Assembly (NCBI RefSeq): GCF_036194065.1
Contig: NZ_CP108095.1
Location: 7,440,001-7,504,000, forward strand
Length of the DNA stretch: 64,000 bases
Reading direction: 5' to 3'
From: Streptomyces sp. NBC_00239
GTDB taxonomy: Bacteria > Actinomycetota > Actinomycetes > Streptomycetales > Streptomycetaceae
Position 1 is the first letter of the stretch. Each line of letters begins with the position of its first letter. The translations under genes were made by a program, and so were the position numbers. Shown in pieces: positions 5,260 through 20,879 of the stretch. Below the pieces are notes generated by a model that did not search any database, was not told where the DNA came from, and was given only the letters and a program-made list of their open reading frames with translations.

Positions 5260-6450
5260 TCAGCGGTTCTTGACCGCCCGCAGGACCACGAACTTCGGGT
5301 CGCCCGCGACGGTTTCGCAGTTCCCGAACAGGCGCCGGAGCTTGAGGTGGTAGGCGAGGTGCCGGTTGCCGACCACCCACAGCTCGCCACCGGGGCGCAG
5401 CGCCCGGCGGGCCTGCGTGAACATCCGCCAGGCGGTGGTGTCGGTGGTGGCCTGGTGGGAGTGGAACGGCGGGTTGTTCAGCACCAGGTCCAGCGAGCCC
5501 TCGGGCAGCCCCGCGAGCCCGTCGCCGACCAGGAACTCCGCGGCTCCGACCGGCAGGTTCGCCTGGAAGGTGGCCCGGGCCGAGGCCACCGCCTGGTACG
5601 ACTCGTCCGTGAAGACGAGCGAGGCCGCCGGGTTGGCGCGGGCGGCCGCCGTGCCGAGCACGCCGTTGCCGCAGCCGAGGTCCGCGATCCGGTCGGCTCC
5701 GCGGTCACGGGGCAGGTGGGCCAGGAAGAACCGGGTCCCGATGTCGAGGCGGTCCGCGCAGAACACGCCCGCGTGACTGGTGACGGCCAGTCCGGCCGCG
5801 GCGCCCTCGTCCTCGTCGAGGACGTACGAGATCGGCCACGGGCCGGCCGGCGGCTTCTCGGCGGGCTTCGGCGTGCAGAAGATCAGCCGGGCCTTCTTCA
5901 CGGCGAGCGAGGTCCGGGTGTGGCCCAGGATCTTCTCGAAGAGCTTCAGGGTCGAGGTGTGGATCTCCTTGACCATGCCGGTGCCGACCACCACCGTGTC
6001 CGCGTGCACGTGCGGCGCGACCCGGTACAGCAGGTCCTCCAGCAGCGCGAGGCTCTTCGGTACCCGGATCACCAGGACGTCGACGCGCTCCGGCGGCGCG
6101 TCCTGGGTGCTGAGCAGCCGGACCGCCTCCGGCGGCACCCCGGCCCGCTCCAGATTGGCCCGGGTGGCCTGCTGGGCGAGGTAGGAGTCGGAGATCTGGG
6201 TGAGGGTGGCGGCCTCGCCGCGGGCGGCGAGGGCCGTGGTGAGCGTGCCCCAGCGGTCGCCGAAGACGGTGAGGTGACGGCCGTCCAGTGCCACCGGGCC
6301 GTCGTCACCCACCTCGCCGGCGAGGTACCGGAGCAGGTACTCGTCGGCGGCGTCCCAGGCGCGCAGCTGCTCGCGCGGGTCCTCGGGGAATCGGGTGAGG
6401 TCGAATTCGCCCCATGACGTCGTGAAACGGTTCTCAGTGGTGCCAGTCAT
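5260..6450 (-). CDS. RlmG/RsmC-type class I SAM-dependent methyltransferase
   Basis: 396 residues beginning MTGTTENRFTTSWGEFDL. It has the duplicated layout of 23S/16S rRNA guanine-N2 methyltransferases: an N-terminal degenerate methyltransferase-like half, then a catalytic half with the SAM motif IADLGCGNGVLG (about residue 260) and the N/G-methylase signature NNPPF at 325-329. Modification of a guanine in rRNA is the likely role; the exact position is not deducible. An in-frame start further upstream (6498) exists, but the shorter form begins like the family. It is a single-gene unit with its own terminator. Confidence 0.85.
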   Translation of the reverse strand: MTGTTENRFTTSWGEFDLTRFPEDPREQLRAWDAADEYLLRYLAGEVGDDGPVALDGRHLTVFGDRWGTLTTALAARGEAATLTQISDSYLAQQATRANLERAGVPPEAVRLLSTQDAPPERVDVLVIRVPKSLALLEDLLYRVAPHVHADTVVVGTGMVKEIHTSTLKLFEKILGHTRTSLAVKKARLIFCTPKPAEKPPAGPWPISYVLDEDEGAAAGLAVTSHAGVFCADRLDIGTRFFLAHLPRDRGADRIADLGCGNGVLGTAAARANPAASLVFTDESYQAVASARATFQANLPVGAAEFLVGDGLAGLPEGSLDLVLNNPPFHSHQATTDTTAWRMFTQARRALRPGGELWVVGNRHLAYHLKLRRLFGNCETVAGDPKFVVLRAVKNR

Positions 6451-6583
6451 CGTGCTGCCCAGGCTAGCCGAGCCCGCGCGCCCCGCCGCCCACCGCACCG
6501 CGGCCGGCCCCCGCGGGAGGGCGGGGACCGGTCCGGGCGGACGCTCGTGCCGTGCTGTTGTGCGGCGGACTCCTGCCGCGCCG

Positions 6584-6937: not shown

Positions 6938-7073
6938 GACGCCCTTTCCGGTGGCCGGCCCGCCTCTCGCGCGCCGTTCGGTCGGTAAACCACACCGGTA
7001 GGTTGAAAATTCCACAAACTCCGCTGGCGTGCACACCGTCCGCCGCGCCGCCCGCGGGACTAGGTTGTCGTCC

Positions 7074-8039
7074 ATGAGCAATCTCGATCGCCAGGCCGCC
7101 CTTTCGGTGTGCGGCGGCCGCGGCTTCGTCGTCGCCGAACCCGTACGGGAACTCCTCACCCCGCGCCGTGTCCAACTGGGCGAGTCCACCGAGGTCCGCC
7201 GGCTCCTGCCGAACCTCGGCCGCCGGATGGTGGGCGCCTGGTGCTTCGTCGACCACTACGGTCCCGACGACATCGCCGACGAGCCCGGCATGCAGGTCCC
7301 GCCGCACCCGCACATGGGCCTCCAGACGGTCAGCTGGCTGCACGAGGGCGAGGTGCTGCACCGCGACAGCACGGGCAGCCTCGAAACCATCCGGCCCCGC
7401 GAACTGGGCCTGATGACCTCCGGCCGGGCCATCAGCCACTCCGAGGAGAGCCCGAAGCAGCACGCCCGCATGCTGCACGGCGCGCAGCTGTGGGTCGCCC
7501 TCCCGGACGCCCACCGCAACGTGGAGCCGCACTTCCAGCACCACGCCGACCTGCCGCAGGTCACGGCGCCGGGCCTGACCGCGACCGTGCTCATGGGCAC
7601 CCTGGACGGCGCCACCTCCCCGGGAACCACGTACACCCCACTGGTCGGCGCCGACCTCACGCTCGCCGCGGGCGCGGAGGCGAACCTCCCGCTCGACCCG
7701 GACTTCGAGTACGCCGTCCTCACCATGTCCGGCGAAGCCCGCGTCGACGGCGTCCCGGTGACACCCGGCTCCATGCTCTACCTCGGCTGCGGCCGCACCG
7801 AACTCCCCCTGCACGCCCTCTCCGACGCAGGCCTGATGCTCCTGGGCGGCGAACCCTTCGAGGAGGAGATCGTCATGTTCTGGAACTGGATCGGCCGGTC
7901 ACACGATGATATCGCGCAGGCTCGCGAAGACTGGATGACAGGCACCCGCTTCGGCGAGGTCAAGGGCTACGACGGCCCCCCGATCCCGGCCCCCGAACTC
8001 CCCCCGACCCACCTGAAGCCCAGGGGAAGGGTCCGCTGA
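7074..8039 (+). CDS. Pirin-family protein; its 3' end is the element attachment site
   Basis: 321 residues. The cupin metal ligands are present in PPHPHMGLQTVSWLHEGE (His78, His80), followed by the pirin pattern GLMTSGRAISHSEESP. Pirins are non-heme iron cupins, some with quercetinase activity, others transcriptional cofactors. The last 163 bp (from 7877) are repeated at 20610-20772, so the present 3' end was probably supplied by an integrating element that restored the frame: the C-terminus FWNWIGRSHDDIAQAREDW differs from the right-hand copy by only a few residues. The start at 7074 was chosen over upstream in-frame starts because the sequence before it is not protein-like. Confidence 0.93.
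   Translation: MSNLDRQAALSVCGGRGFVVAEPVRELLTPRRVQLGESTEVRRLLPNLGRRMVGAWCFVDHYGPDDIADEPGMQVPPHPHMGLQTVSWLHEGEVLHRDSTGSLETIRPRELGLMTSGRAISHSEESPKQHARMLHGAQLWVALPDAHRNVEPHFQHHADLPQVTAPGLTATVLMGTLDGATSPGTTYTPLVGADLTLAAGAEANLPLDPDFEYAVLTMSGEARVDGVPVTPGSMLYLGCGRTELPLHALSDAGLMLLGGEPFEEEIVMFWNWIGRSHDDIAQAREDWMTGTRFGEVKGYDGPPIPAPELPPTHLKPRGRVR
7877..8039 (+). repeat. Left attachment repeat (attL): pirin 3' end
   Basis: 163 bp matching 20610-20772 with no insertion or deletion. It opens with an identical 18-bp block beginning GTTCTGGAACTGG, then further identical blocks broken by single, mostly silent substitutions; sequence upstream of 7877 is unrelated to that upstream of 20610. The crossover lies inside the first identical blocks. 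Confidence 0.8.
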
Positions 8040-8126
8040 ACTGCCCTTATGTGCGGATCCGGGCCAGGCATCGAGGCCGTTTCCCGAGGGGCATCGGATC
8101 GTCGGTCGATGTGTTTCGTCGACTGG

Positions 8127-8290: not shown

Positions 8291-9056
8291 ACACGCATCG
8301 CTCCCCATCCCAAACGGCTGAGCAGCACCTCCACCACGGGATCGCGCACCCAGGGCGCCCGGTCGGCATCTCTCGGGACCGTGGTCACTGCAGTCGACGC
8401 CTTGCAAGGACCCCTGGTCCGGGTCGAGGAGTGCACTGAACGGCGGGGTTCTGTCGGATGTCTGTCAACCTGCCCAACCTCTGCCCACACGCGGACGGTG
8501 CTGGCCGGTCGCCCGCTGCGACCATCCGTCCCAGCGGGGCAATGCAAGCCCGACAGGGCTGATGAGCTGCCGACCCCATGTGCTCGAGGCGTAAGCCAGC
8601 ACGACGGTGCCAAGCGAGTGGTACCGAGCCGCCGTTGCCGCCTCCGGTGCCGGTACCCACCCGTTGGTGGACATGCCACTGGGAAGGTTGGGACCCCACA
8701 CGCGCTTCCAGGGATGCAACTTGTCTCTGCATCCGGATTCATGGGTCTGTTGTCGATCACATCGTCTAGATTCGTGTGCAGTCGGGATATGGCTGGTTGC
8801 GTACGTCCGACCTTCGAACGATCACAACGTAGGGGTCAATGTTGCGACATGGGGATGGGGCCGGGGCGCGCGAGGCCCGTGGCGCTGCCGAGCGGATCGA
8901 CACTCGTCCGTGCGTCCGCCCGGAGGGTGGGGTGGCCCGAGTCGCACGTGAGGTGACACCTCGCCCGGCCGTAATCGGCCTGAGTGGACTCCGGGCCGCC
9001 ACGAGTGTGCGGACGTCCGTTGGTCGCTGGGGCGGCTACCTCGAGGGCGGTCGCGC
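8291..9056. other. Gene-free stretch ahead of the defence operon
   Basis: About 770 bp with no convincing gene on either strand. Several open frames cross it, but none has a recognisable motif or a plausible start. It must hold the promoter of the operon starting at 9057. The base composition is visibly less GC-rich than the flanking genes near 8700-8850. Confidence 0.5.
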
Positions 9057-12000
9057 GTGACCATCATGCAGGCCTGGACCCCGGACGCAGATCTCGTGCG
9101 GCAAGTCCGGCAGCAGTTCGACAAAGCCCTCGACTCGTACCGTGCCAACGCCCACCTCGTCACCGAGCACGCCAATCACGAGGAGTCCATCAGGGTCGGC
9201 GGATATGCACATCGGACTCTCCTGGAGCTGGTCCAGAACGCCGCCGACGCGATGTCGGGAAGTGGCGAGAACGCCGGGGAGCTCGGTGGCCGTGTCGAGA
9301 TCGTCCTCGACACGGAGAACGAGACGCTGTACTGCGCCAACGCAGGACGTCCGTTCTCCAAGGACGGACTGACCACGATCACGCACGCGCATCTCAGCGG
9401 CAAGCGGGGCGACGAGATCGGGCGCTTCGGCCTGGGTTTCAAGTCCGTCCTGGCCGTCTCGCCGGCTCCGCAGGTCTTCAGCCGTTCGGTGTCGTTCGAG
9501 TTCAACTCGCGTACGGCTCGAGAGGAGATCGGTCGAATCGCGCCCTCCGCGAGGCGGCATCCGGTGCTGCGCACCCCCACCGTCGTCGATCCGTTCGCTG
9601 CGTTCGCTTCGGATCCGATCCTCGACGAGCTCGCCGGCTGGGCCTCCACCGTGGTGAAGCTCCCGCACGCGGCGAACCTCGGCCGTCTGCGCCAGGAGAT
9701 CGAGTCGTTCCCGTCGGAGTTCCTTCTCTTCGTCGGCGCCGTCCGGCAGGTCAGACTGCGGGTGCTCGGGGCGGCCGCGTTCGAGACGAGCCACACGTCC
9801 CGTGACTTCGGCGGGGGTGTCTTCAAGATCGAGACCCCGGACGGGTCCGGGGAGGAGTGGATCGTCGAGGACCGCATGCACATGCCGTCCGCAGTGGCCC
9901 GCAAGGAGGTCGGGGAGGCCGTTTCCCGCAACGAGGTCAAGGTCACCGTCGCCGTCCCGAGGCGGCGGGCCCAGCAGCGCGTCGGACGGTTCTGGTCCTA
10001 CTTCCCGCTCCAGGACCAGACGTCCGCGTCCGCGCTGTTCAACGCTCCGTGGAGCGTGAACGACGACCGGACCACGCTGCTCGAGAACGACTACAACCGG
10101 GAGATCCTCAAGACGCTCTCGGGCATGTTCGTCGGCCTGCTGCCGCGGGTGACCCAGCCGGACGACCCGGCCGCACACCTCGACTACATGCCCGCGCGAG
10201 GACGGGAGCCGCTGTCGTTCGGCGACAAGCTGCTCTGCGCCCACGTTCCGGCGATCGCGGGCGGTCGCGAGCTGGTCCCCGACACCACGGGGACCCTCGT
10301 GAGCGCCGCCGATCTGCGCCCCCTGGACTTCGCCGTCGAGGTCGCCCCGGACATCCACCAGGCGTGGGGCATCTCCCCGCACACCGCCACCGACGTACCG
10401 CACTGGCGGTGTTACACCTCGCCGCAGCGCATCACCCGCCTGCGGCAGCTGTTCATCACCTCGAGTCCGCACGGCGGCATCGATGCCACCGACAGGGACA
10501 TGAAGCGCGCCCTCGAAGGGATCCCCAAGCGAGGGCTCCTCTCCTGGCTGCGCGAGTGGGCCGAGGGGCCGGATCCGGTGTCCGCCGCCAACGCCTTCAG
10601 GTTCGTGGTCGGCAAGAAGTCGTCCCTGCCTGGCAGCGACCTGGCCAAGGTCATCCCCACTCTCGACGACATGCGGGCACTGGCCGACAGGAACATCGTC
10701 TTCCTGCACCAGGAGGAAGGCGTCGAGATCGAGGGCGCGATCTTCGTCTCCCCGGCCTTCCTGAGTCAGCCGGGTGTCGAGCAAGAGCTCCGCAAGGCGG
10801 GGTTCCGGGATCTGGACCCGCGGGCCATCCTCAACGCACGGCTCGCGGCCCTCTCGGCCACTGCGGGCGAGGACGAGCTCACCAAGCTGTGGGACGCCGT
10901 CGAAGGGCTGTCCACCGGTGAGGCCGCCAAGGCCCTGGCCGCCCACTCGACCACCATCAAGGTCCCGACCGGTGACGGTGAGTGGGCCTGGCCCCGCACG
11001 GTGTTCGACCTCCCCGAACCGCTGGGTGAGGAGCACGCGCCGAGGACCCTGGACCGCGGACGCTGCATGCCCGAGGTGGCACATGCGCTCGGCGTGGTAC
11101 GAGTGCCAATGAGCCGCTATTCCGCGGAGGACGAGCCGGCGATCGAGGAGTACCGGGAATGGATCCTCACCACGCTCAACGCCGCGCAGGGTCCGGGCGA
11201 GAGACCGATAGGGAACATCGATTTCTACCCCGGTGAGGGGCCGGGCCCGTTCTCAGTGCTGCCCATCCTGCTGGAAGCGGGTGCGTCGCAGAAGTTGCGC
11301 GAGACCTGGACCGTCGGCCTGCTCGAGGCAGGCGACAGCGAGTGGACGTGTGAGGACCTCGACACGGGTCGCACGCACGTGGTGCCGTCTCCCGTCCGCT
11401 GGGCGGTGGACCGCGCGGGTCTGCTCCAGACGACGCGGGGGTACCGTCGACCGTCCGAGGTGGTCGCCCCCTCGCTCGTCAGGTACGAGAAGTTGCTGCC
11501 GCTGTTGAAGGGCTCGCGTCGGGTGGCGGAGGCGCTGGAGCTTCCGGACGAGATCGAAGCGGTGCCGGCCCAGATTCTCGAGGAGGCACTCGCGGCTGAA
11601 CTGTTCCCGTCGAGCCTCGACGACGCCCTGTTGGTCGAGTTCATCACCGTGACGTGCCGGATCGCCTACCCGGCCGGCCGTCCGCCGAGCATCCCGGCCC
11701 GGGTGAAGCGGGCCGTCGAATCGCGTGCACCCGTCTCTGTGTATCTCGCCACCTCGGACGAGCAGCAGCAGTTCCTCTCCTCGCGGGAGCGGCCGTACCT
11801 GCGCGTGACGGAGGCCCAGGCGGCCGACCTCGTCGCGACGGTGGGGTGCCGCCGGTTCGAGGACAGCTTCGCGTTCTCGATGGTGATCGACGGCGATCAG
11901 CAGGGAGAGCGGATCGTCGACCTCTTCACCGGTCTGCGCAACACGCACGCCGCCAGCAGGCTGGCCAACGCCACCCTCGCCCGGGCGATCCAGGTGGTCA

Positions 12001-13775
12001 AGCGGACGACCACGGAGGACGGGGTCGAGGACAAGCCGCTGCCGTGGCACCTCGAGGGGACGGCTCTGGTCGTGGCGGGTAGCGACGCCGACGAACGTCG
12101 GCTGCTCGGCTTCGTCAACGAGGCCTTTGAGCTGCGTCTGAACAACGCCGACCTCGACGGCGTACTCAAGACCGGTCTCGACCACCATCTCCAGGAACTT
12201 CGACAGGAGGCCAAGGCCGCCGCCAACGACGCCGATCGGCTCGACGTCTACTTCGGGCCGGACGACCTGCGTGATGCTCTGCCCAAGGGCTTGTGGCAGG
12301 CGCTGGAGGCGCAGGGACTGATCGACAACCGGTCGTCCGTCGCGGATCTCTTCCTCACCGTGTACGGCTCGGACGCGATCAGCACCCTCGCGGAGCAGTT
12401 CCGGCAGGTGGGCTTCAACGACGTGCCGACCCAGTGGGCAGGCAGCGCCACCACTATCTCCTGGTTGCGGAAGATGGGCTTCGGATCCCAGTACGCGGGC
12501 CGCCGCAGGGAGCACCAGGAGCAGGAGTTCGTCGTCCCCGGCGCAGTGAAGCTCAACCCCCTGCACCCGTTCCAGCAGCGGGTCAGTCGTCAACTCAAGG
12601 ACGTCCTCGTGCTGCGGGATGCCAGGGGCCGACATCTCAAGGCGATGGTGGAGCTGCCGACGGGAGCGGGCAAGACGCGTGTCGCTGCGGAGACCGTCCT
12701 GCGGCTCTTCACCGAGGATGAGCTGCGAGGGCCGGTCCTGTGGATCGCGCAGTCCCTCGAGCTGTGCGAGCAGGCTGTCCAGACCTGGACCACCGTCTGG
12801 AGGGGGCTCGGGGACGAGCGCCCGCTGACCGTGGGGCGGCTCTGGGAAGGCAACACGGTCCACGAACCGGACACGGAGTTCAGTCTCGTCGTCGCCACGG
12901 ACGCCAAGCTCGACGCCGTCCTCGGCAGTGCGGAATACGAGTGGCTCGCCGAGGCATCTGCGGTCATCGTCGACGAGGGGCACCGAGCCGGCGGTTCCGA
13001 GCGGTACACACGCATTCTGGAATGGCTCGGTGTGGCCGGGCGTGGGTGGGACCGTCCTCTGGTCGGGCTGTCCGCGACGCCTTTCAAGGGCACCTCCGAA
13101 GAGGCGACCAGGGCCCTGGTCAACCGGTTCGGAAACCGTAAGCTGGACGCCTTCGACGCCGACGTCGACGCGTACAGGAAGCTTGCGGAGCTCGGTGTGC
13201 TCGCACGGGTCGAGCACCAGGTGCTGGACGGCATCGAGGTCGAGTTGGGGCCGCAGGAGATCGCCGAGGTCACCAGGCAGCGCAGGATCAGCCCCACCGT
13301 CCTGGAGCGCATCGGTAGGGATCAGGCACGCATGGCGAAGCTCGTCGACCACATCATGGGGCTGGACGAGGACTGGCCCGTGCTCGTGTTCACCCCGAAC
13401 GTGCTCTCGGCCCAAGTGCTCGCCGCCACACTGCGCTACCGCGGGGTCGAGGCGGCATCGGTGAGCGGACAGAGCGGCAGGCAGGAACGCCGCGACATCA
13501 TCAAGAAATTCAAGGACAACGAGATCCGTGTCCTCGCCAACTGCGACCTGCTGATCCAAGGGTTCGACGCCCCGGGCGTCCGCGCCCTCTACATCGCCCG
13601 ACCGACCTTCAGCCCCAACGCCTACATCCAGATGGCTGGGCGTGGGCTGCGCGGTCCGGCCAACGGCGGAAAGGCGGAGTGCCTCATCGTGGACATGGCC
13701 GACAACTTCGGCGATGTCAACGAGTTGCTCGGCTACCGCGAGTACGAAGACCTCTGGAAGGAACAGCACGCGTGA
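9057..13775 (+). CDS. Sacsin-type HATPase fused to SF2 (DEAD/DEAH) helicase
   Basis: 1572 residues, first gene of the DISARM-like operon. Residues 45-140 form an HSP90/sacsin-type GHKL ATPase: the N-box ELVQNAADA (Glu57, Asn61, Asp64) and the glycine box IGRFGLGFKS (121-130) are intact. A long central region is unassigned. The C-terminal 400 residues are a superfamily-2 helicase: Walker A PTGAGKT (Lys1206), Walker B DEGH (1306-1309), motif III SATP (about 1338) and motif VI QMAGRGLRG (1525). Both ATP sites look competent. Start GTG 9057 follows GAGGG; an ATG three codons on is possible. The stop overlaps the next start (GTGA). The fusion resembles neither DrmD nor DrmE of described DISARM classes. 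Confidence 0.85.
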   Translation: MTIMQAWTPDADLVRQVRQQFDKALDSYRANAHLVTEHANHEESIRVGGYAHRTLLELVQNAADAMSGSGENAGELGGRVEIVLDTENETLYCANAGRPFSKDGLTTITHAHLSGKRGDEIGRFGLGFKSVLAVSPAPQVFSRSVSFEFNSRTAREEIGRIAPSARRHPVLRTPTVVDPFAAFASDPILDELAGWASTVVKLPHAANLGRLRQEIESFPSEFLLFVGAVRQVRLRVLGAAAFETSHTSRDFGGGVFKIETPDGSGEEWIVEDRMHMPSAVARKEVGEAVSRNEVKVTVAVPRRRAQQRVGRFWSYFPLQDQTSASALFNAPWSVNDDRTTLLENDYNREILKTLSGMFVGLLPRVTQPDDPAAHLDYMPARGREPLSFGDKLLCAHVPAIAGGRELVPDTTGTLVSAADLRPLDFAVEVAPDIHQAWGISPHTATDVPHWRCYTSPQRITRLRQLFITSSPHGGIDATDRDMKRALEGIPKRGLLSWLREWAEGPDPVSAANAFRFVVGKKSSLPGSDLAKVIPTLDDMRALADRNIVFLHQEEGVEIEGAIFVSPAFLSQPGVEQELRKAGFRDLDPRAILNARLAALSATAGEDELTKLWDAVEGLSTGEAAKALAAHSTTIKVPTGDGEWAWPRTVFDLPEPLGEEHAPRTLDRGRCMPEVAHALGVVRVPMSRYSAEDEPAIEEYREWILTTLNAAQGPGERPIGNIDFYPGEGPGPFSVLPILLEAGASQKLRETWTVGLLEAGDSEWTCEDLDTGRTHVVPSPVRWAVDRAGLLQTTRGYRRPSEVVAPSLVRYEKLLPLLKGSRRVAEALELPDEIEAVPAQILEEALAAELFPSSLDDALLVEFITVTCRIAYPAGRPPSIPARVKRAVESRAPVSVYLATSDEQQQFLSSRERPYLRVTEAQAADLVATVGCRRFEDSFAFSMVIDGDQQGERIVDLFTGLRNTHAASRLANATLARAIQVVKRTTTEDGVEDKPLPWHLEGTALVVAGSDADERRLLGFVNEAFELRLNNADLDGVLKTGLDHHLQELRQEAKAAANDADRLDVYFGPDDLRDALPKGLWQALEAQGLIDNRSSVADLFLTVYGSDAISTLAEQFRQVGFNDVPTQWAGSATTISWLRKMGFGSQYAGRRREHQEQEFVVPGAVKLNPLHPFQQRVSRQLKDVLVLRDARGRHLKAMVELPTGAGKTRVAAETVLRLFTEDELRGPVLWIAQSLELCEQAVQTWTTVWRGLGDERPLTVGRLWEGNTVHEPDTEFSLVVATDAKLDAVLGSAEYEWLAEASAVIVDEGHRAGGSERYTRILEWLGVAGRGWDRPLVGLSATPFKGTSEEATRALVNRFGNRKLDAFDADVDAYRKLAELGVLARVEHQVLDGIEVELGPQEIAEVTRQRRISPTVLERIGRDQARMAKLVDHIMGLDEDWPVLVFTPNVLSAQVLAATLRYRGVEAASVSGQSGRQERRDIIKKFKDNEIRVLANCDLLIQGFDAPGVRALYIARPTFSPNAYIQMAGRGLRGPANGGKAECLIVDMADNFGDVNELLGYREYEDLWKEQHA

Positions 13776-15295
13776 TCCTGGTTCCCGATCTCGCGGACAT
13801 CGAGAAGTCCGCGACCAGTGACGCCGAGCGCCGGGTCGCCCGTCTGCTTCGAGGGATCGAGGGCGACCCCGACGCGGTCGCCTTCCACTCGGTGAAGCTG
13901 CGCTCCCACGAGTACAAGCAGCAGGCGGAGGCGGACTTCGTCATCCTGTGGAATAAGGTCGTCATCGTCGTCGAGGTGAAGGGCGGCGGTGTCCGGAAGT
14001 ACGACGGAGCCTGGTACAGCGTCGACCGTCGCAACGACTGGCACAAGCTGACCCGCTCGCCCATGGAGCAGGCCCGCACGGCCATGTACGCCCTGCGGGA
14101 CATCCTGAAGGAAGAGGGCATCGGCTGGTTCGCCCACGAGGCTGTCGTCGTCACGCCCGACATCGACCCGCTCCCGCACTCGGTCGAGTGGAAGCCGACT
14201 CACTGGCTGGCCAAGGACTCGATGAGCGTGGAGGGTTTGGCCGGTGCGCTCGACGCGATCGCGGCAGCCTCGCGGACTGCTCCCCACGGCCAGAGGCTGG
14301 CCCGGATGGAGGACGTGCGGGCGCGCCTGTTCGGCGAGTTCACCCGGATGCCCGTGATCGACGCCCAGCGTGGTGCGGTCATCGAGGAGCAGAACCGTGC
14401 GACGGCCGGCCAGGCCAGGGTCCTTGCCTCGCTGGCACGCAACCCGCGGGTGATGGTGTTCGGCGGCGCGGGCACGGGCAAGTCTCTCGTCCTGGTCGAG
14501 GCGGCCAAGCAGGAGGCCGCTCGGGGCAGGTCGGTCCTGGTCACCTTCGGCTCGCCGGAACTCGTCCGGTTCTTCACCCCTCACCTGGCCGGTCGCGAGA
14601 ACATCGACGTGGTGCCCTTCGGAAAGCTGGAGCCGACCCGGGCCTACGACGTGGTGTTCCTCGACGAGGCCCAGGACCTGATGACGGCCGAGGCCATGGA
14701 CACCCTCGACGAGGTCGTCGCGGGTGGGCGGGCCGGAGGCCGCTGGCGGATGTTCCTCGACACGAACAACCAAGCACACGTCGACGGGGGCTTCGACGAG
14801 GACGTCCTCGAACTGATCACCCCTGAGGCCCTGACGGTCGACCTGGACCTCAACGTCCGCAACACTCGGGCGATCGTGCACATGGTGCAGGAGTACCTCG
14901 CAGCGGACGTCGGAGATCCGGGCATCGTCCACGGGGAGCGGGTCCAGTGGCACACGCCGGCCAGGACCGCCGACCTCGCCGCAGCTGACGCGGTGGCGCG
15001 ACGGTTGGTGGCCGACGGAGTCCGTGGCCAGGACATATGGATCATCAGTACGGCGTCGGACGAGGCACCCCGCGAATTGCCGGGCGGGTACGTGGTGACG
15101 AGTCCCAGGTATGCCAAGGGACTGGAGGCGGAACACGTCGTCGTCTGCGACCTTCCCCGTTCCTTCGACAACGTCGGCACCGCGGCGTTCTACGTGGCGG
15201 TGACGCGCGCCCGCGTCTCCCTGCACATCGTCGCCTCCAGAGAGGACCGGCGGCGCCTGCAGCAGCTCCTGCCCCAGCGGTCGGTGACCGCGTGA
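13772..15295 (+). CDS. NERD-domain nuclease fused to UvrD/DUF2075-like helicase
   Basis: 507 residues, starting GTG 13772 inside the stop of the preceding gene. The N-terminus is a nuclease-related domain (NERD): EADFVILW then VVEVKGG supplies the PD-(D/E)XK-type triad Asp55, Glu68, Lys70. Next comes a superfamily-1-like motor: Walker A GGAGTGKS (Lys237), Walker B FLDEAQDL (Asp298/Glu299) and, near the C-terminus, VTRARVSLHIVAS, as in UvrD motif VI. It is the only clear nuclease candidate of the operon and so the likely effector that cuts DNA. The frame upstream of 13772 is antisense-like noise and was excluded. The 3' end overlaps the next gene by 4 nt. Confidence 0.85.
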   Translation: MILVPDLADIEKSATSDAERRVARLLRGIEGDPDAVAFHSVKLRSHEYKQQAEADFVILWNKVVIVVEVKGGGVRKYDGAWYSVDRRNDWHKLTRSPMEQARTAMYALRDILKEEGIGWFAHEAVVVTPDIDPLPHSVEWKPTHWLAKDSMSVEGLAGALDAIAAASRTAPHGQRLARMEDVRARLFGEFTRMPVIDAQRGAVIEEQNRATAGQARVLASLARNPRVMVFGGAGTGKSLVLVEAAKQEAARGRSVLVTFGSPELVRFFTPHLAGRENIDVVPFGKLEPTRAYDVVFLDEAQDLMTAEAMDTLDEVVAGGRAGGRWRMFLDTNNQAHVDGGFDEDVLELITPEALTVDLDLNVRNTRAIVHMVQEYLAADVGDPGIVHGERVQWHTPARTADLAAADAVARRLVADGVRGQDIWIISTASDEAPRELPGGYVVTSPRYAKGLEAEHVVVCDLPRSFDNVGTAAFYVAVTRARVSLHIVASREDRRRLQQLLPQRSVTA

Positions 15296-18200
15296 ACAGG
15301 ACCAGGGCGCAGGATCTCGCGTTGAAGCACCTCCGTGCGGCCTACCTCGGGCCGGAGGGAGGCGAGGACGAGGTCGTCACCAACCTGCCGGACCGCCAGT
15401 ACTGCGTCGGGATGCTGTTTCCCGCCGGGTCATTGCTGCCTTCCACGAGGGAGGCACCTGGTGACGAGGAGGTGTCGTCGGACGTGGCCGAGGGAGAGGT
15501 CGAGGAAGCCGGCGCGGGGGTGCCGCTCGCGGAGGACTGGCGGCCCTCCTCGGTCGCGATCTCGTTCGTCACGGACCGGGAAACCGTCCTGTGCGACTTC
15601 TCGGCCGGCACCTATCGGCGGGTCACCGAGGACGGGCCTCCGCGTTGGCAACGAGTGCCCTTCGCGTGCGCCGGGGTCGAGCTGTCGGCGGATCGACCGC
15701 CGCGGGAGTTCCGCGCGGGTGAGGTGTCGTTGGAGCTCGGATCGAGGTGGCGGCCCTACGGCAACGCCCACCTCGTGACGGTGCACGTACGCGTCCAGTC
15801 CCCCTCCACCGGCGACGACCGCTCCGACATCGCCCTGATGCTCTTCCAGACAGCGCTCGGCGTGAGGCCCGCGCCCGGGGGGACGATCCGCGAGTACGAC
15901 GTGACGCGGTCGTTCGACGCGGATCCGGAGTCCGCCGAGCTGCGCCTGCGCTACCGCGACAAGAAGGTGTACGCGGTCGGTCACGGCATGGCGGCGGAGT
16001 GGGATGTGTCGGACGGCGTGTGCACGCGTGTCTTCCTCGACCCTGTCCCGGCGTTCGTCGTACCCGCGGTCGAGACCACCGGCTTCCCACCCGGGTCCGC
16101 GGCGGCCAAGGCACTTCGCCTCGACCTCCTCGAGCGGATCGACCGGGAACCGGACGAGGTCCTGGCCACGTTGGACGTGTTCGTGGCGGCCTTCGCGGAC
16201 TGGGTCACCGAACAGGAGGCACAGGCCGAGGGCCACGGCGACGACACCCCGATCGCCAGGGCGATCACCGGCCGGGCGCGTGCCGCCGTGCGGCGCATGG
16301 AGGCGGGCGTCGCCCTCCTGCGCGAACCGGAGCAGGACTCCTTGCGGAAGGCCTTCGCGCTCGCCATGGCCGCGATGCGGCTGCAGATGCGCCGGACCGG
16401 GATGAAGCACGGTCAGGACCCGGCCGGGGTGACGGAGCCGAGCTGGCGCCCCTTCCAGCTCGGCTTCCTGCTAGTGGCACTCGCCTCGACCGTCGACGAC
16501 GCGCACGAGGACCGGGAGCTCGTCGACCTGATCTGGTTCCCGACCGGCGGCGGTAAGACGGAGGCCTATCTGGGGCTGGCGGCGATCGAGATCTTCCACC
16601 GGCGGATCGTGCACGGCACGGCGGGCGCCGGCACCGCCGTGATCACCCGGTACACGCTCCGCCTCCTGACGTCCCAGCAGTTCCAACGCGCCGCCTCGCT
16701 CGTGTGCGCGATGGAGGTCCTGCGGCGCAGCGATCCCAGGGCTGTGGGGATGGCCAGGTTCTCCATCGGCCTGTGGGTCGGCAACGAGGTCACCCCGGCG
16801 ACCAGGAGAGACGCCAAGAACGCACTCGACCGCCTGTGCAAGGCCTCCCGGCCCAAGGAGGCGAACGAGTTCCAGGTCGAGAGCTGTCCCTGGTGCGACA
16901 CCCCGATCCTGCCCCAGACCAAGGACCACGACCGGGCCCGGTATGGCTTCCGACTCGTCGGCCGTGACGTAGTCATCCACTGCACGAACACGGAGTGCCC
17001 GTTCGCCGACGAACTCCCCGTGGGCGTGGTCGACGAGGTGCTCTACGAGGAACCCCCGACCATCCTGCTGGCCACGGTGGACAAGTTCGCCCGTCTGCAG
17101 TTCAAGCCCGAGGCGGGAAGCCTGCTCGGCCTCGACACCATGTTCCGGCAGCCCTCGTTGATCATCCAGGACGAGCTGCACTTGTTGTCGGGACCGCTCG
17201 GGACCACGGTCGCCGTGTTCGACGCCGTGATCAAGATGCTGCTGGGCAAGCACGGTTCGCAACCCAAGATCGTCGCCTCGACGGCCACCATCCGTGCGTC
17301 GGACGAGCAGGTACGAGGGCTCTACGGGCGCGACGTCGCCCTGTACCCGCCGACCGGGCTCGAAGGGGACCGTACGTTCTTCTCCCGTGCCGTGGATAGC
17401 GGCGAGGGCCGCCTGTACGTCGGCCTGATGCCGCAGTCCGTCTCGCAGGTCTCCGCGGTGATTGCCGCGGTCGCCCCCCTCGTCGAGGTCCCCGAGGTGC
17501 TTGTCGCCGAAGCCGAGCCCGAGCCCGGGACGGAGGCGAAGCGCGACCCGTACTGGACGGTCGTGATGTACCACAACAGCCTGCGGGAGCTCGGTCGCTC
17601 AGGAACCCTCGTGGTCGACGACGTGAACGGGCGCCTGGAGCCCCGGTCGGAGCGCTTGGGCCTTCCGCTGCGTCGGGTGAGGGCCGACCGCGTGCTGGAG
17701 CTGACCAGTCGCCGGGGCCCCGAGGAACTCCCCAACGACCTGCGGGAGCTGGGCCGCAGCGTGGACGACGGAGATCGTGCCGTCGATGTCGTCCTGTCCT
17801 CCAACATGCTGTCCGTCGGCATCGACGTGCCGCGACTGGCGGTGATGCTCATGGTCGGGCAACCGAAGACGACCTCCGAGTACATCCAGGCCACAAGCCG
17901 CGTCGGCCGCGGGAAGAACAACGGCATCGTCACGACCCTGTTCCGTTCGAACCGGGCCCGCGACCGGTCGCACTTCGAGACCTTCCGCGGCTACCACCAG
18001 ACGCTCTACCGCAACGTCGAACCGACGAGCGTCACCCCCTGGTCGGTGGCTTCCCGGGAGCGATCGTTGGCTGGCGCCCTGGTGGCGCTGGTAAGGCACT
18101 CCTTCTCCTCCCTCGCGGACAACGACAGCGCGTCGCGTCTGGACCTGTCCGACGATTTGCTGCGCGGGGCACTCGACGGCCTGGTCGTCGGCTTCGTCGG

Positions 18201-18480
18201 CCGGGTGGCCCGCTCCGAGGAAGTGGAGGCCGAGGAGACCGAGACGGAGGTGTGGCGGCTCCTGCACGACTGGGACCGCCGTGCCCGTCTCGCACGCGAG
18301 GCCGGGGCCGTCCTGTCCTACGACCGCAGGAAGTCGGACGACGCGGCGCTGCTGAAGCGGTTCGGTCAGCCCGGGGAGGGATGGCTCGTCGGCGACTCGA
18401 TGCGATCCGTCGAGCCGAATGTCGCCGTACAGGTGCGTGAGCCGATGGAAGGAGGCAACCGTGGAGCGGATTCTGCATGA
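15292..18480 (+). CDS. drmA: DrmA-like DISARM helicase
   Basis: 1062 residues from GTG 15292 (GTGA overlap with the gene before). The helicase core has Walker A FPTGGGKTEA (Lys422), the unusual Walker B box QDELHLLSG (Asp627 to His630), STAT (about 663), NMLSVGIDVPRL and motif VI YIQATSRVGRG (about 866). DELH, the TGGGKTEA loop and a Cys-pair segment between them (CPWC, then CTNTECPF) are hallmarks of DrmA, the DNA-binding helicase of DISARM. In DISARM, DrmA and DrmB form the core complex that engages invading DNA. The N-terminal 350 residues are variable. Its end overlaps the DrmB-like gene by 20 nt. Confidence 0.85.
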   Translation: MNRTRAQDLALKHLRAAYLGPEGGEDEVVTNLPDRQYCVGMLFPAGSLLPSTREAPGDEEVSSDVAEGEVEEAGAGVPLAEDWRPSSVAISFVTDRETVLCDFSAGTYRRVTEDGPPRWQRVPFACAGVELSADRPPREFRAGEVSLELGSRWRPYGNAHLVTVHVRVQSPSTGDDRSDIALMLFQTALGVRPAPGGTIREYDVTRSFDADPESAELRLRYRDKKVYAVGHGMAAEWDVSDGVCTRVFLDPVPAFVVPAVETTGFPPGSAAAKALRLDLLERIDREPDEVLATLDVFVAAFADWVTEQEAQAEGHGDDTPIARAITGRARAAVRRMEAGVALLREPEQDSLRKAFALAMAAMRLQMRRTGMKHGQDPAGVTEPSWRPFQLGFLLVALASTVDDAHEDRELVDLIWFPTGGGKTEAYLGLAAIEIFHRRIVHGTAGAGTAVITRYTLRLLTSQQFQRAASLVCAMEVLRRSDPRAVGMARFSIGLWVGNEVTPATRRDAKNALDRLCKASRPKEANEFQVESCPWCDTPILPQTKDHDRARYGFRLVGRDVVIHCTNTECPFADELPVGVVDEVLYEEPPTILLATVDKFARLQFKPEAGSLLGLDTMFRQPSLIIQDELHLLSGPLGTTVAVFDAVIKMLLGKHGSQPKIVASTATIRASDEQVRGLYGRDVALYPPTGLEGDRTFFSRAVDSGEGRLYVGLMPQSVSQVSAVIAAVAPLVEVPEVLVAEAEPEPGTEAKRDPYWTVVMYHNSLRELGRSGTLVVDDVNGRLEPRSERLGLPLRRVRADRVLELTSRRGPEELPNDLRELGRSVDDGDRAVDVVLSSNMLSVGIDVPRLAVMLMVGQPKTTSEYIQATSRVGRGKNNGIVTTLFRSNRARDRSHFETFRGYHQTLYRNVEPTSVTPWSVASRERSLAGALVALVRHSFSSLADNDSASRLDLSDDLLRGALDGLVVGFVGRVARSEEVEAEETETEVWRLLHDWDRRARLAREAGAVLSYDRRKSDDAALLKRFGQPGEGWLVGDSMRSVEPNVAVQVREPMEGGNRGADSA

Positions 18481-20281
18481 TCTGCGGCTGTCGGAGACCC
18501 TGTCACCCTTCGGTGTTGGGGCGATCGTCGACGTGCTCGGGGAGTCTCTGATCGCACCCGACACCTCGTGGTGGGACCACAAGTACTCCCGCGAGATCAG
18601 TTGTGAGCGACTCTTGTCGCGGCTCGGCCCAGGCGTCCTGCGACAGGCGCCGGCTCATTCGGGGCACGCCGCCAAGGAGACCCCGCACCTGCTGTACTGG
18701 CGCTTCCCCGCCTGGCGGTTCTGCGAGCGGTGCACGAAGCTCTCGCAGCTGACCGGCAGAGACAAGGGGCGTTGGAAGAACAGCTGTGGGTGCGGCGGGG
18801 CCCTCGTACCCATGCGCTACGTTGCCGTGTGCCAGAAGGGCAGCCACATCCAGGACGTCCCCTGGTTCAAATGGGCCCACCGCGGCAACGACGCGGGCGT
18901 CACCGAGGCCGTGCGGTTCTGCCGCGCCTACAAGGAACTGCACTTCGAGCGCTCGTCCCGTCGCGGAGAGGGACTGGGGGCGCTCAGCGTCCACTGCACC
19001 GGATGCAACCGCTCCCGCCCGCTCTCCGAGCTGGTCGGGAAGGACTCGCTGCACCGGGATGGCATCCGGTGCGACGGCACGCAGCCATGGGAGGAGCCGA
19101 AGCCAGGGCAGATCTGCGAGCACCGCCTGGTCGCCGTGCAGCGAGGCGCGACCGGCAACTACATGGCCGATCACAAGTCGGCCCTCGACATTCCGGAGGA
19201 GCGCCCAAGGGCCGATCGGACGACGGACCTGATCCGCGGCCATGTCTATTTCGAGAAGGTCGTGGCCGACAACGGTGGTCCGCAGGCGGAGATGGTCGCC
19301 GGATGGATCGCGGACGAGATCGAAGGGGTCTCGGCGGACGACGTCCTGGCTCTTGCGGCCCGTGGCGACAAGCCTGACGAGGAGGCTGTGTTCCTCGACC
19401 TCAAGGACGGGGAATGGGCAGCGTTCCTCACGAAACTCGACAGTGGCAGGGACCCTGGTGTCGGTGACTTCGTCGTCGACGGCTGGCGGGTGTCCGAGGC
19501 ACAGGGTCGGCCTTCGGCCCTCACGAGCCGCCTCGTTTCCGTGGGGCAGGTGCGTCGTGTCCGCGAGGTTAGGGCACTTCTCGGTTTCCGGCGTCACGAC
19601 GCCGACGCGGACCTAGTGAGGGCCGACCTCGGCCGTGACAAGAAGCGCAAACCCGTCTATCCGGCCGTCGAGCTGTACGGCGAGGGGATCTTCTTCCGGT
19701 TCGACGAGGAACGCATCTCCGAGTGGGAAGTCCTGCCCGAGGTCCGCAAGCGAGCCGCGATCCTGGCAGGGCGTCGTGACGCCACTCCGTGGGCGCAGCG
19801 CCTGGACGTCCCGGAGCCGCGTTTCGTCGCGCTCCACACGCTCTCCCACCTGCTGATCCGCAGGCTCGCCTTCGCGAGCGGGTACTCGTCGGCAGCTCTC
19901 CAGGAGCGTATCTACGCCAATTCGGGGAGGCCGGACCGTACGGCCGGCATCCTCATCTACACGGCGGCGGGGGATGCGCAGGGGACCCTCGGCGGTCTCG
20001 TCCGGTTGGGTGCGCCGGACAAGGTCCTGCCGCTGATGCTGGCCGCGTTGAGTGACGGCGACGTCTGCTCCAACGATCCGGTCTGCATCGAGAGCGATCG
20101 GCAGGGCTCTTCGCAGCTCAACCTGTCGGCCTGTCACGGGTGCGCCCTTGTCAGCGAGACGTCCTGCGAGACGGGAAACCGTCTGCTGGACCGGCAGCTC
20201 CTCCTCGGAGGGAGGAACGTGCCCGGCTTCCTGGAGCATGCGCTCGACCAGGTCCGGTCGTGGACGGGCTCGACCACCTGA
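18461..20281 (+). CDS. drmB: DrmB-like DUF1998 zinc protein
   Basis: 606 residues from GTG 18461, which is preceded at ideal spacing by GGAAGGAGG and lies within the end of the DrmA-like gene. It begins LRLSETLSPFGVGAIVDV, then carries Cys clusters FCERC, SCGCG, CQKG, HCTGC and CEH, and ends in the DUF1998 signature SNDPVCIES, LSACHGCALV and SETSCETGNRLLDR. DUF1998 proteins (DrmB, MrfA C-terminus) partner SF2 helicases and coordinate zinc. In DISARM, DrmB stabilises DrmA on DNA. This is the last gene of the operon; its stop lies at the very edge of the broken integrase on the opposite strand. Confidence 0.87.
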   Translation: MERILHDLRLSETLSPFGVGAIVDVLGESLIAPDTSWWDHKYSREISCERLLSRLGPGVLRQAPAHSGHAAKETPHLLYWRFPAWRFCERCTKLSQLTGRDKGRWKNSCGCGGALVPMRYVAVCQKGSHIQDVPWFKWAHRGNDAGVTEAVRFCRAYKELHFERSSRRGEGLGALSVHCTGCNRSRPLSELVGKDSLHRDGIRCDGTQPWEEPKPGQICEHRLVAVQRGATGNYMADHKSALDIPEERPRADRTTDLIRGHVYFEKVVADNGGPQAEMVAGWIADEIEGVSADDVLALAARGDKPDEEAVFLDLKDGEWAAFLTKLDSGRDPGVGDFVVDGWRVSEAQGRPSALTSRLVSVGQVRRVREVRALLGFRRHDADADLVRADLGRDKKRKPVYPAVELYGEGIFFRFDEERISEWEVLPEVRKRAAILAGRRDATPWAQRLDVPEPRFVALHTLSHLLIRRLAFASGYSSAALQERIYANSGRPDRTAGILIYTAAGDAQGTLGGLVRLGAPDKVLPLMLAALSDGDVCSNDPVCIESDRQGSSQLNLSACHGCALVSETSCETGNRLLDRQLLLGGRNVPGFLEHALDQVRSWTGSTT

Positions 20282-20555: not shown

Positions 20556-20609
20556 GCCGGAGGGTCCACCACGTTCCTGACCTGCACGAAGACGGATATC
20601 TCGTGTTAC

Positions 20610-20772
20610 GTTCTGGAACTGGATCGGGCGGTCACACGAGGATATCGCGCAGGCCCGCGAAGACTGGATGAACGGGACGAGGTTCGGTGAGGTGAAGGGC
20701 TACGACGGCGCTCCGATTCCGGCCCCCGAGCTGCCTCCGACACACCTGAAACCGCGTGGTCGGGCACGCTGA
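20610..20772 (+). repeat. Right attachment repeat (attR): displaced pirin 3' end
   Basis: 163 bp encoding the last 53 residues of a pirin (FWNWIGRSHEDIAQAREDW to the stop) without any upstream gene. It is co-linear with 7877-8039 and differs by scattered, mainly silent substitutions. Its reading frame is open and under-diverged, consistent with being the former native gene end. Confidence 0.8.
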
Positions 20773-20879
20773 GCTGCGGAAATATTGAACCGTGCAGAGG
20801 TGTCGTGATCGCGGTTAAGCGTTCCGTTTGTTGGTGTCGCCTGAGCGTCGATCGCGACTCCCGCCGGGCCTTGAGGGGT

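Follow-up and report, generated by a model that had tools for sequence, protein, structure and literature searches.

DISARM, whose class 1 and class 2 are understood here in their usual sense, is built on DrmA and DrmB, and work on the solved DrmAB complex proposes that it combines the sensing of DNA structure with that of methylation (PMC9142583). In the sections drawn on here, Bell et al. 2025 (PMC12458937) report many uncharacterised classes in a DISARM-like clade, a DISARM-like system next to McrBC is noted by Bell et al. 2024 (PMC11090510), and restriction loci in which GHKL ATPases accompany superfamily 2 (SF2) helicases, nucleases, and methylases are described by Iyer et al. 2008 (PMC2292703). 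Our analysis of a 64,000-nucleotide (nt) stretch of Streptomyces sp. NBC_00239 (NZ_CP108095.1, positions 7,440,001 to 7,504,000; the window, with locus coordinates counted from its first letter) revealed an operon of four genes, g1 to g4, which encode a GHKL ATPase-SF2 helicase fusion, a NERD nuclease fused to a superfamily 1 (SF1) helicase, a DrmA-like helicase, and a DrmB-like protein. We put at roughly 55% the probability that this operon is a new DISARM-like defence variant directed against incoming DNA, one that senses DNA structure and uses methylation as an optional mark.

The layout proposed in the sequence-only reading of this DNA agreed with our check of open reading frames (ORFs) and translations. 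On the plus strand lie g1 (9057-13775; 1572 amino acids [aa]), g2 (13772-15295; 507 aa), g3 (15292-18480; 1062 aa), and g4 (18461-20281; 606 aa), each starting with GTG, with GTGA overlaps at g1/g2 and g2/g3 and a 20-nt overlap at g3/g4; g2, g3, and g4 could each be extended in frame to a longer ORF, and the earlier starts were retained. Third-position G+C values of 0.85-0.88 argue that all four are coding. The g1 product consists of a sacsin/Hsp90-like GHKL ATPase, a long middle region, and a RadD-like SF2 helicase. Its GHKL and middle domain spans residues 30-404 (9144-10268, plus strand) by the VIA-align ranges of the Hsp90 rows, while sacsin SR1 rows cover up to residues 30-249; the rows compared with the g1 model were mostly sacsin and Hsp90 and barely covered the region past about residue 404. 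This N-terminal part scored 71.3 bits against NCBIfam P_loop_sacsin (cut-off 50), with the Pfam SACS match below threshold, and 181 bits against the PADLOC profile for TmtA, which we take to be the Tiamat protein (residues 12-366, profile 8-355, 348 of 1538 positions). The GHKL G1 box is usually D.G.G; in g1 it reads AN.G in every aligned sequence, so the variant is not decay of the NBC_00239 copy. The helicase (residues 1169-1553; 12561-13715, plus strand) matches Pfam ResIII and Helicase_C and carries the motifs PTGAGKT, DEGH, SATPF, and QMAGRGLR, and its best solved relative is RadD (E 1.6e-17). In g2, the NERD domain (residues 17-127; Pfam NERD, 44.3 bits, cut-off 22.1) precedes the SF1 helicase, the protein matches PADLOC RTasNERD-Hel at 67 bits, and E19, D55, E68, K70, K237, D298, E299, R479, and R481 are near-invariant among 48 sequences. 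The Pfam, PADLOC, and NCBIfam profiles thus confirm the earlier assignment of a GHKL-helicase and a NERD-helicase as the two partner genes, and the claim that all catalytic motifs are intact also held: the four frames are open and the motifs are kept in aligned relatives, apart from the shared G1 box variant.

The remaining two genes encode the DrmA-DrmB core that had been proposed. The g3 protein, a YprA-family helicase that lacks the N-terminal domain seen in Serratia DrmA, scored 657 bits against PADLOC DrmA and 809 bits against the NCBI DrmA equivalog (cut-off 950, not reached); Pfam gave Helicase_C and a DEAD match about at the cut-off, and the fold comparison matched the DrmA fold, with MrfA nearest after DrmA itself. 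The g4 protein, of OB/DUF1998 type, belongs to the DrmB family by its NCBIfam DrmB_fam score (403 bits, cut-off 240) and is supported by PADLOC DrmB (222 bits), Pfam MZB (DUF1998), the structure 7s9v_B (E 5.5e-64), and cysteines conserved in relatives. The fold alignment of g3 begins at model residue 4, equivalent to Serratia DrmA residue 134, which leaves no room for the N-terminal EVE-like domain of class 1 DISARM DrmA; none was found in that alignment, and the 85-residue in-frame extension of g3 is too short to hold one. An acidic, predicted disordered segment (residues 45-82; 15424-15537, plus strand; predicted local distance difference test [pLDDT] about 25-30 at residues 51-80) lies where alignment and fold comparison place Serratia DrmA residues 176-232. 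It is present in 48/48 g3 sequences, at 31-45 aa and a median charge of -12, and by position, charge, and predicted disorder it qualifies as the putative counterpart of the DrmA trigger loop. Val1040 (18409-18411, plus strand) aligns with Serratia DrmA Val1296, the proposed methylation sensor; valine occupies this position in 47 of 48 sequences, the remaining one having a gap.

The four-gene order proved to be conserved across many genera. A protein search with g1 gave 2209 relatives among 7992 scored, the 120 listed of these showing 63-100% identity over 91-100% of the length. Retrieval of loci relied on g1, by a scan of species genomes with a 20-row g1 alignment and two peptide patterns, and therefore misses those whose g1 has diverged; genes were called with a home-made codon-position caller, and about 3.5 kb downstream of g4 was visible at most loci. 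Both order and strand of the four genes were kept in 57 of the 62 loci found, far beyond chance. These same-order loci come from 26 named genera and a few further lineages, all Actinomycetota by record titles, and their g1 proteins are 50-81% identical to that of NBC_00239 over nearly the whole length. L050 and L064 are without g2, L063 is a fragment, and L056 and L061 have an extra gene between g1 and g3, with the NERD gene last; a methylase was considered for this extra gene and rejected, since it encodes a GajB-like UvrD helicase. At L030 g4 is cut by the contig end, and the g1 match is drawn out to 5.9 kb at L004 and 5.2 kb at L024, the N-terminal part in L004 being a separate 394-codon ORF; g1 may be broken in both. 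For 47 loci plus the NBC_00239 copy, the set in which all four gene calls passed and which served for conservation and trees (10 same-order loci were dropped), pairwise protein distances of the four genes correlated at 0.88-0.95. Moreover, g1 of the NBC_00239 type (at least 62% identity) occurred in 6 of 295 Streptomyces genomes, and DrmA at 69% identity or above in the same six and no other of the 291 genomes covered by the DrmA, methylase-family, and right-flank searches. Together, these findings argue that the operon is inherited as one unit.

No dedicated PADLOC or NCBIfam family exists for g1 or g2 (a comparison with families, as distinct from PADLOC system rules), and no description of the four-gene order was found in the main texts, supplements excluded, of the literature searched, in keeping with the unclassified status claimed earlier. 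DISARM class 1 and class 2 share with the operon DrmA, as judged by fold and PADLOC profile, and DrmB as two adjacent genes, the trigger-loop position, and the Val1296 counterpart. The operon differs in its GHKL-SF2 fusion and NERD-SF1 helicase, in a DrmA without the N-terminal domain, and in a methylase that is absent here and variable in relatives, and the same-order loci show neither a DrmC motif nor a DrmD relative. A motif test, as opposed to a profile search, found no HKD/PLD motif of DrmC in any of 620 non-core ORFs, in the six-frame translations of the 62 loci, or in the 64-kb window with about 20 kb on each side, and tblastn with one DrmD relative matched only L050 and L064, neither of which is a same-order locus. 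In these two Microbacterium loci, g1-DrmA-DrmB is divergent from a DrmD-like helicase and a methylase (an Eco57I match in L050); in L050 a further helicase, seen by eye, follows these two genes, and the arrangement looks ARMADA-like. DrmE had no PADLOC match among 8 neighbouring ORFs of the NBC_00239 operon, and for relatives the view covers the first 25 of 170 families; only one of the 8 ORFs (5260-6498, by eye an rRNA methylase-like gene) matched any PADLOC family, at 71.8 bits to mad2 and 16.7 bits to a type II methylase model.

The sections of PMC12458937 used here, in whose main text the words GHKL, HATPase, and sacsin are absent, describe two further systems that overlap with the operon in part. 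ARMADA type II likewise has SF2, YprA, and GajB-like SF1 helicase kinds in one operon, and its own features are a BrxHII-like SF2 helicase, a PglX-like methylase, an unsplit YprA with a Vsr-type nuclease domain, and a RelE-SF1 protein. We rejected ARMADA as a name for the operon on gene content, as there is no BrxHII-like helicase, PglX-like methylase, or unsplit YprA, and DrmA and DrmB are separate. TALON shares a YprA-family helicase with a NERD-type nuclease gene and is characterised by ARMADA-like YprA, TPR-CSD, and TBP genes; it is rare and largely from Chloroflexota. Pfam and PADLOC found no TPR-CSD, TBP, or ARMADA-like YprA in the operon, whose DrmA and DrmB are again separate genes. 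The MORC/paraMORC restriction loci, as far as described in the part of PMC2292703 used, share the GHKL ATPase, SF2 helicase, and nuclease, often with a C5 methylase and Vsr; there, however, ATPase and helicase are separate genes, DrmAB is unmentioned, and the MORC family carries the motif GhXhhpXXRhl in its S5 domain. Tiamat has the GHKL ATPase N-terminus in common with g1, but the helicase part of g1 lies outside the TmtA match, and g1 is not a full-length TmtA.

The absence of a methylase, DrmC motif, or DrmD relative beside the NBC_00239 operon stood up within the flanks searched: the queries used found no C5 methylase, Vsr, N6 methylase, or DrmD relatives within 29 kb upstream or about 63 kb downstream, and the operon itself has no DrmMI or DrmMII methylase. 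As a property of the system, methylase-lessness did not survive. A C5 methylase is in view at 41 of the 57 same-order loci, within 2 kb at 36, and within 2 kb downstream of g4 at 28 (on the same strand in 23/57), and Vsr is in view at 31; C5 or N6 methylases are in view at 44 of 61 loci, the fragment L063 left out. Motif-based calling gave 36 methylase proteins, 32 of which fall into one family; as 26 of 291 Streptomyces genomes carry that family, chance does not account for its proximity to the operon. The C5 methylases of the relatives match DrmMII models, with better E-values for DruM and type II models. Methylase and core distances correlate at r 0.31-0.53 (23 loci left once near-identical ones among 28 were merged; permutation p ≤ 0.001), compared with 0.87-0.94 for core pairs, and loci with no methylase in view are dispersed across the operon tree; we therefore read the methylase, from these sequence comparisons, as a frequent, probably exchangeable partner module. 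In a profile scan of 120 of 216 neighbouring ORFs, nearest first, Pfam NaeI was found in four ORFs, and it also occurs in L026. A NaeI-like nuclease is near the operon in seven loci (L010, L018, L022, L026, L032, L055, and L059, one cluster), which suggests GCCGGC as a candidate methylation site of that family; six of these loci also have a C5 methylase in view. GCCGGC occurs 125 times in the window (shuffle mean 94.6, reached by 0/100 shuffles), a count uninformative on methylation.

These distributions also bear on methylation-dependent restriction, in which C5 methylation would mark self DNA and be needed for safety, an unlinked methylase acting from elsewhere in the genome where none is linked. 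A C5 methylase is present in 41/57 same-order loci (28 downstream of g4 within 2 kb) and in all 15 regions of a related branch described below. Among the 17 same-order genomes that show none beside the operon, 9 hold the methylase family elsewhere in the assembly, compared with 23 of 285 Streptomyces genomes that lack the operon. Judging by coordinates, the copies in L026 and L046 may be some 7 kb away from the operon, and those in L008 and L030 may sit at the edge of an adjacent contig. NBC_00239 is among the nine (C1:5187039-5188262), and the eight genomes without the family, as well as G234, all have some other C5 methylase. The family is present in three of the six operon-bearing Streptomyces genomes, in one case linked to the operon, versus 23/285 (Fisher p 0.011). 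The retained Val1296 counterpart and a methylase-core correlation that, weak as it is, exceeds permutation also fit this explanation. Trigger-loop length shows no difference between loci with and without a methylase in view (medians 39 vs 38; 37 vs 11 sequences). We regard obligate protection by methylation as possible but rather unlikely.

Related branches combine similar genes. Another 50 Streptomyces genomes have a g1 relative at 33-42% identity, in two over the helicase part only; 14 of 15 regions fetched read g1, UvrD helicase, DrmA, DrmB, and a C5 methylase relative is present in all 15, the overlapping L091 and L103 sharing one. Among the UvrD-type loci of the g1 scan, L061, from outside Streptomyces, has a methylase in view and L056 has none. 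By eye, an HTH-GHKL-like gene with partner genes lies between the C5 methylase and the related operon in L089 and L093 (e.g., L093:3934-6084); that of L093 matches the PADLOC candidate PDC-M33A, and a similar gene adjoins the Nocardia copies (L012:21346-23478). DrmA at 42-45% identity occurs in about 32 other Streptomyces genomes of the 291. In the three regions fetched (L129-L131), an MzaA-matching gene lies upstream of DrmA, divergently in L129, and in L129 and L130 DrmA is followed by a DrmB-like ORF, identified by eye, and a 363-367-aa SF1-type helicase with a weak NERD+UvrD match.

From gene order, homology, folds, motif conservation, and methylase statistics, all observed directly, we infer a defence role, a substrate, an order of action, and partner contacts for the DISARM-like variant that we favour. 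DrmA-DrmB would load on single-stranded or 5'-overhang DNA of a phage or plasmid that enters or replicates, the acidic trigger loop of DrmA acting as the gate. The GHKL-SF2 protein might then clamp, remodel, or unwind the captured DNA or complex in the fashion of Hsp90 or MutL, and the NERD-SF1 protein would unwind and cut the DNA, replacing the usual nuclease. Self DNA would be spared first by its structure, as chromosomal double-stranded DNA would be unable to displace the loop, and the neighbouring C5 methylase of most relatives would add a mark that lowers DrmAB activity. More tentatively, methylation may have been abandoned in the NBC_00239 clade, the Nocardia loci, and other methylase-free loci, where DrmAB and the GHKL clamp-helicase would discriminate by DNA structure alone, with the ATPase as a proofreading gate before the NERD cut and methylases as interchangeable add-ons. 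Several points weigh against a structure-sensing defence variant: the linked methylase in 41/57 loci argues that methylation may weigh more; the DrmA score of g3 is under the NCBI equivalog cut-off (809 of 950 bits); the loop is identified by position, charge, and predicted disorder and not by a sequence match, and the g3 model has other low-confidence stretches (838-873, 886-916, and 1038-1062); and the surroundings of the operon are housekeeping-type genes and not a defence island.

This last point, together with RadD as the nearest solved relative of the g1 helicase and MrfA as the nearest fold after DrmA itself, is consistent with a DNA repair or replication-fork module, in which RadD-like and MrfA-like helicases and a nuclease would act at stalled forks; we consider such a role improbable. 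The flanking genes, named by eye, are a metalloprotease, the rRNA methylase-like gene, and a pirin gene upstream and a SulP transporter downstream. A candidate control region without a called gene or assigned strand (8733-8929) precedes g1; it is 76% identical (blastn, 150/198 positions) to the same place in Streptomyces exfoliatus (L039), and its function is putative.

A 173-nt direct repeat, found by a repeat search and independently by a pirin-gene search, flanks the operon in two copies that are 83% identical and 12,733 nt apart. The left copy (7872-8044, plus strand) is the 3' end of the pirin-like gene (7029-8039), and the right one (20605-20777, plus strand) is a pirin C-terminal fragment, open in frame; the two give no order of which came first. 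As all 20 pirin regions fetched from relatives contain a single pirin 3' end, the sequences suggest an insertion at the pirin end that created a second copy, possibly at an integration site. The right-flank search for an empty site matched SulP-gene DNA, and the five regions fetched contained no pirin DNA; the PhiC31 attB, a known pirin-gene site, was rejected as the insertion site because a pattern search did no better than chance. Occurrence in unrelated mobile elements, which the sequence-only reading had named as possible support, did not emerge: the plasmid search gave one weak match (33% identity over 40%), and the ten phage records listed of 370 match the helicase part only. The diverged repeats, the lack of an integrase (by eye) among translated ORFs up to 31 kb of the window, and the scatter of methylase-free loci over the tree would suit a stranded island that has lost its methylase and is silent or decaying, but four open frames with intact motifs and a g1 that is 50-81% identical to same-order relatives over nearly its full length make this the least probable explanation.

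Same-order operons with and without a linked methylase offer a natural comparison through which the question of how DISARM spares self DNA becomes testable. Under the favoured reading, the partners of DrmAB come to include a chaperone-type ATPase and a NERD nuclease-helicase. The UvrD-type branch and the arrangement in L129 and L130 show that DrmAB with an SF1 helicase recurs, which suggests that DrmAB is a module found repeatedly with different SF1 helicases.

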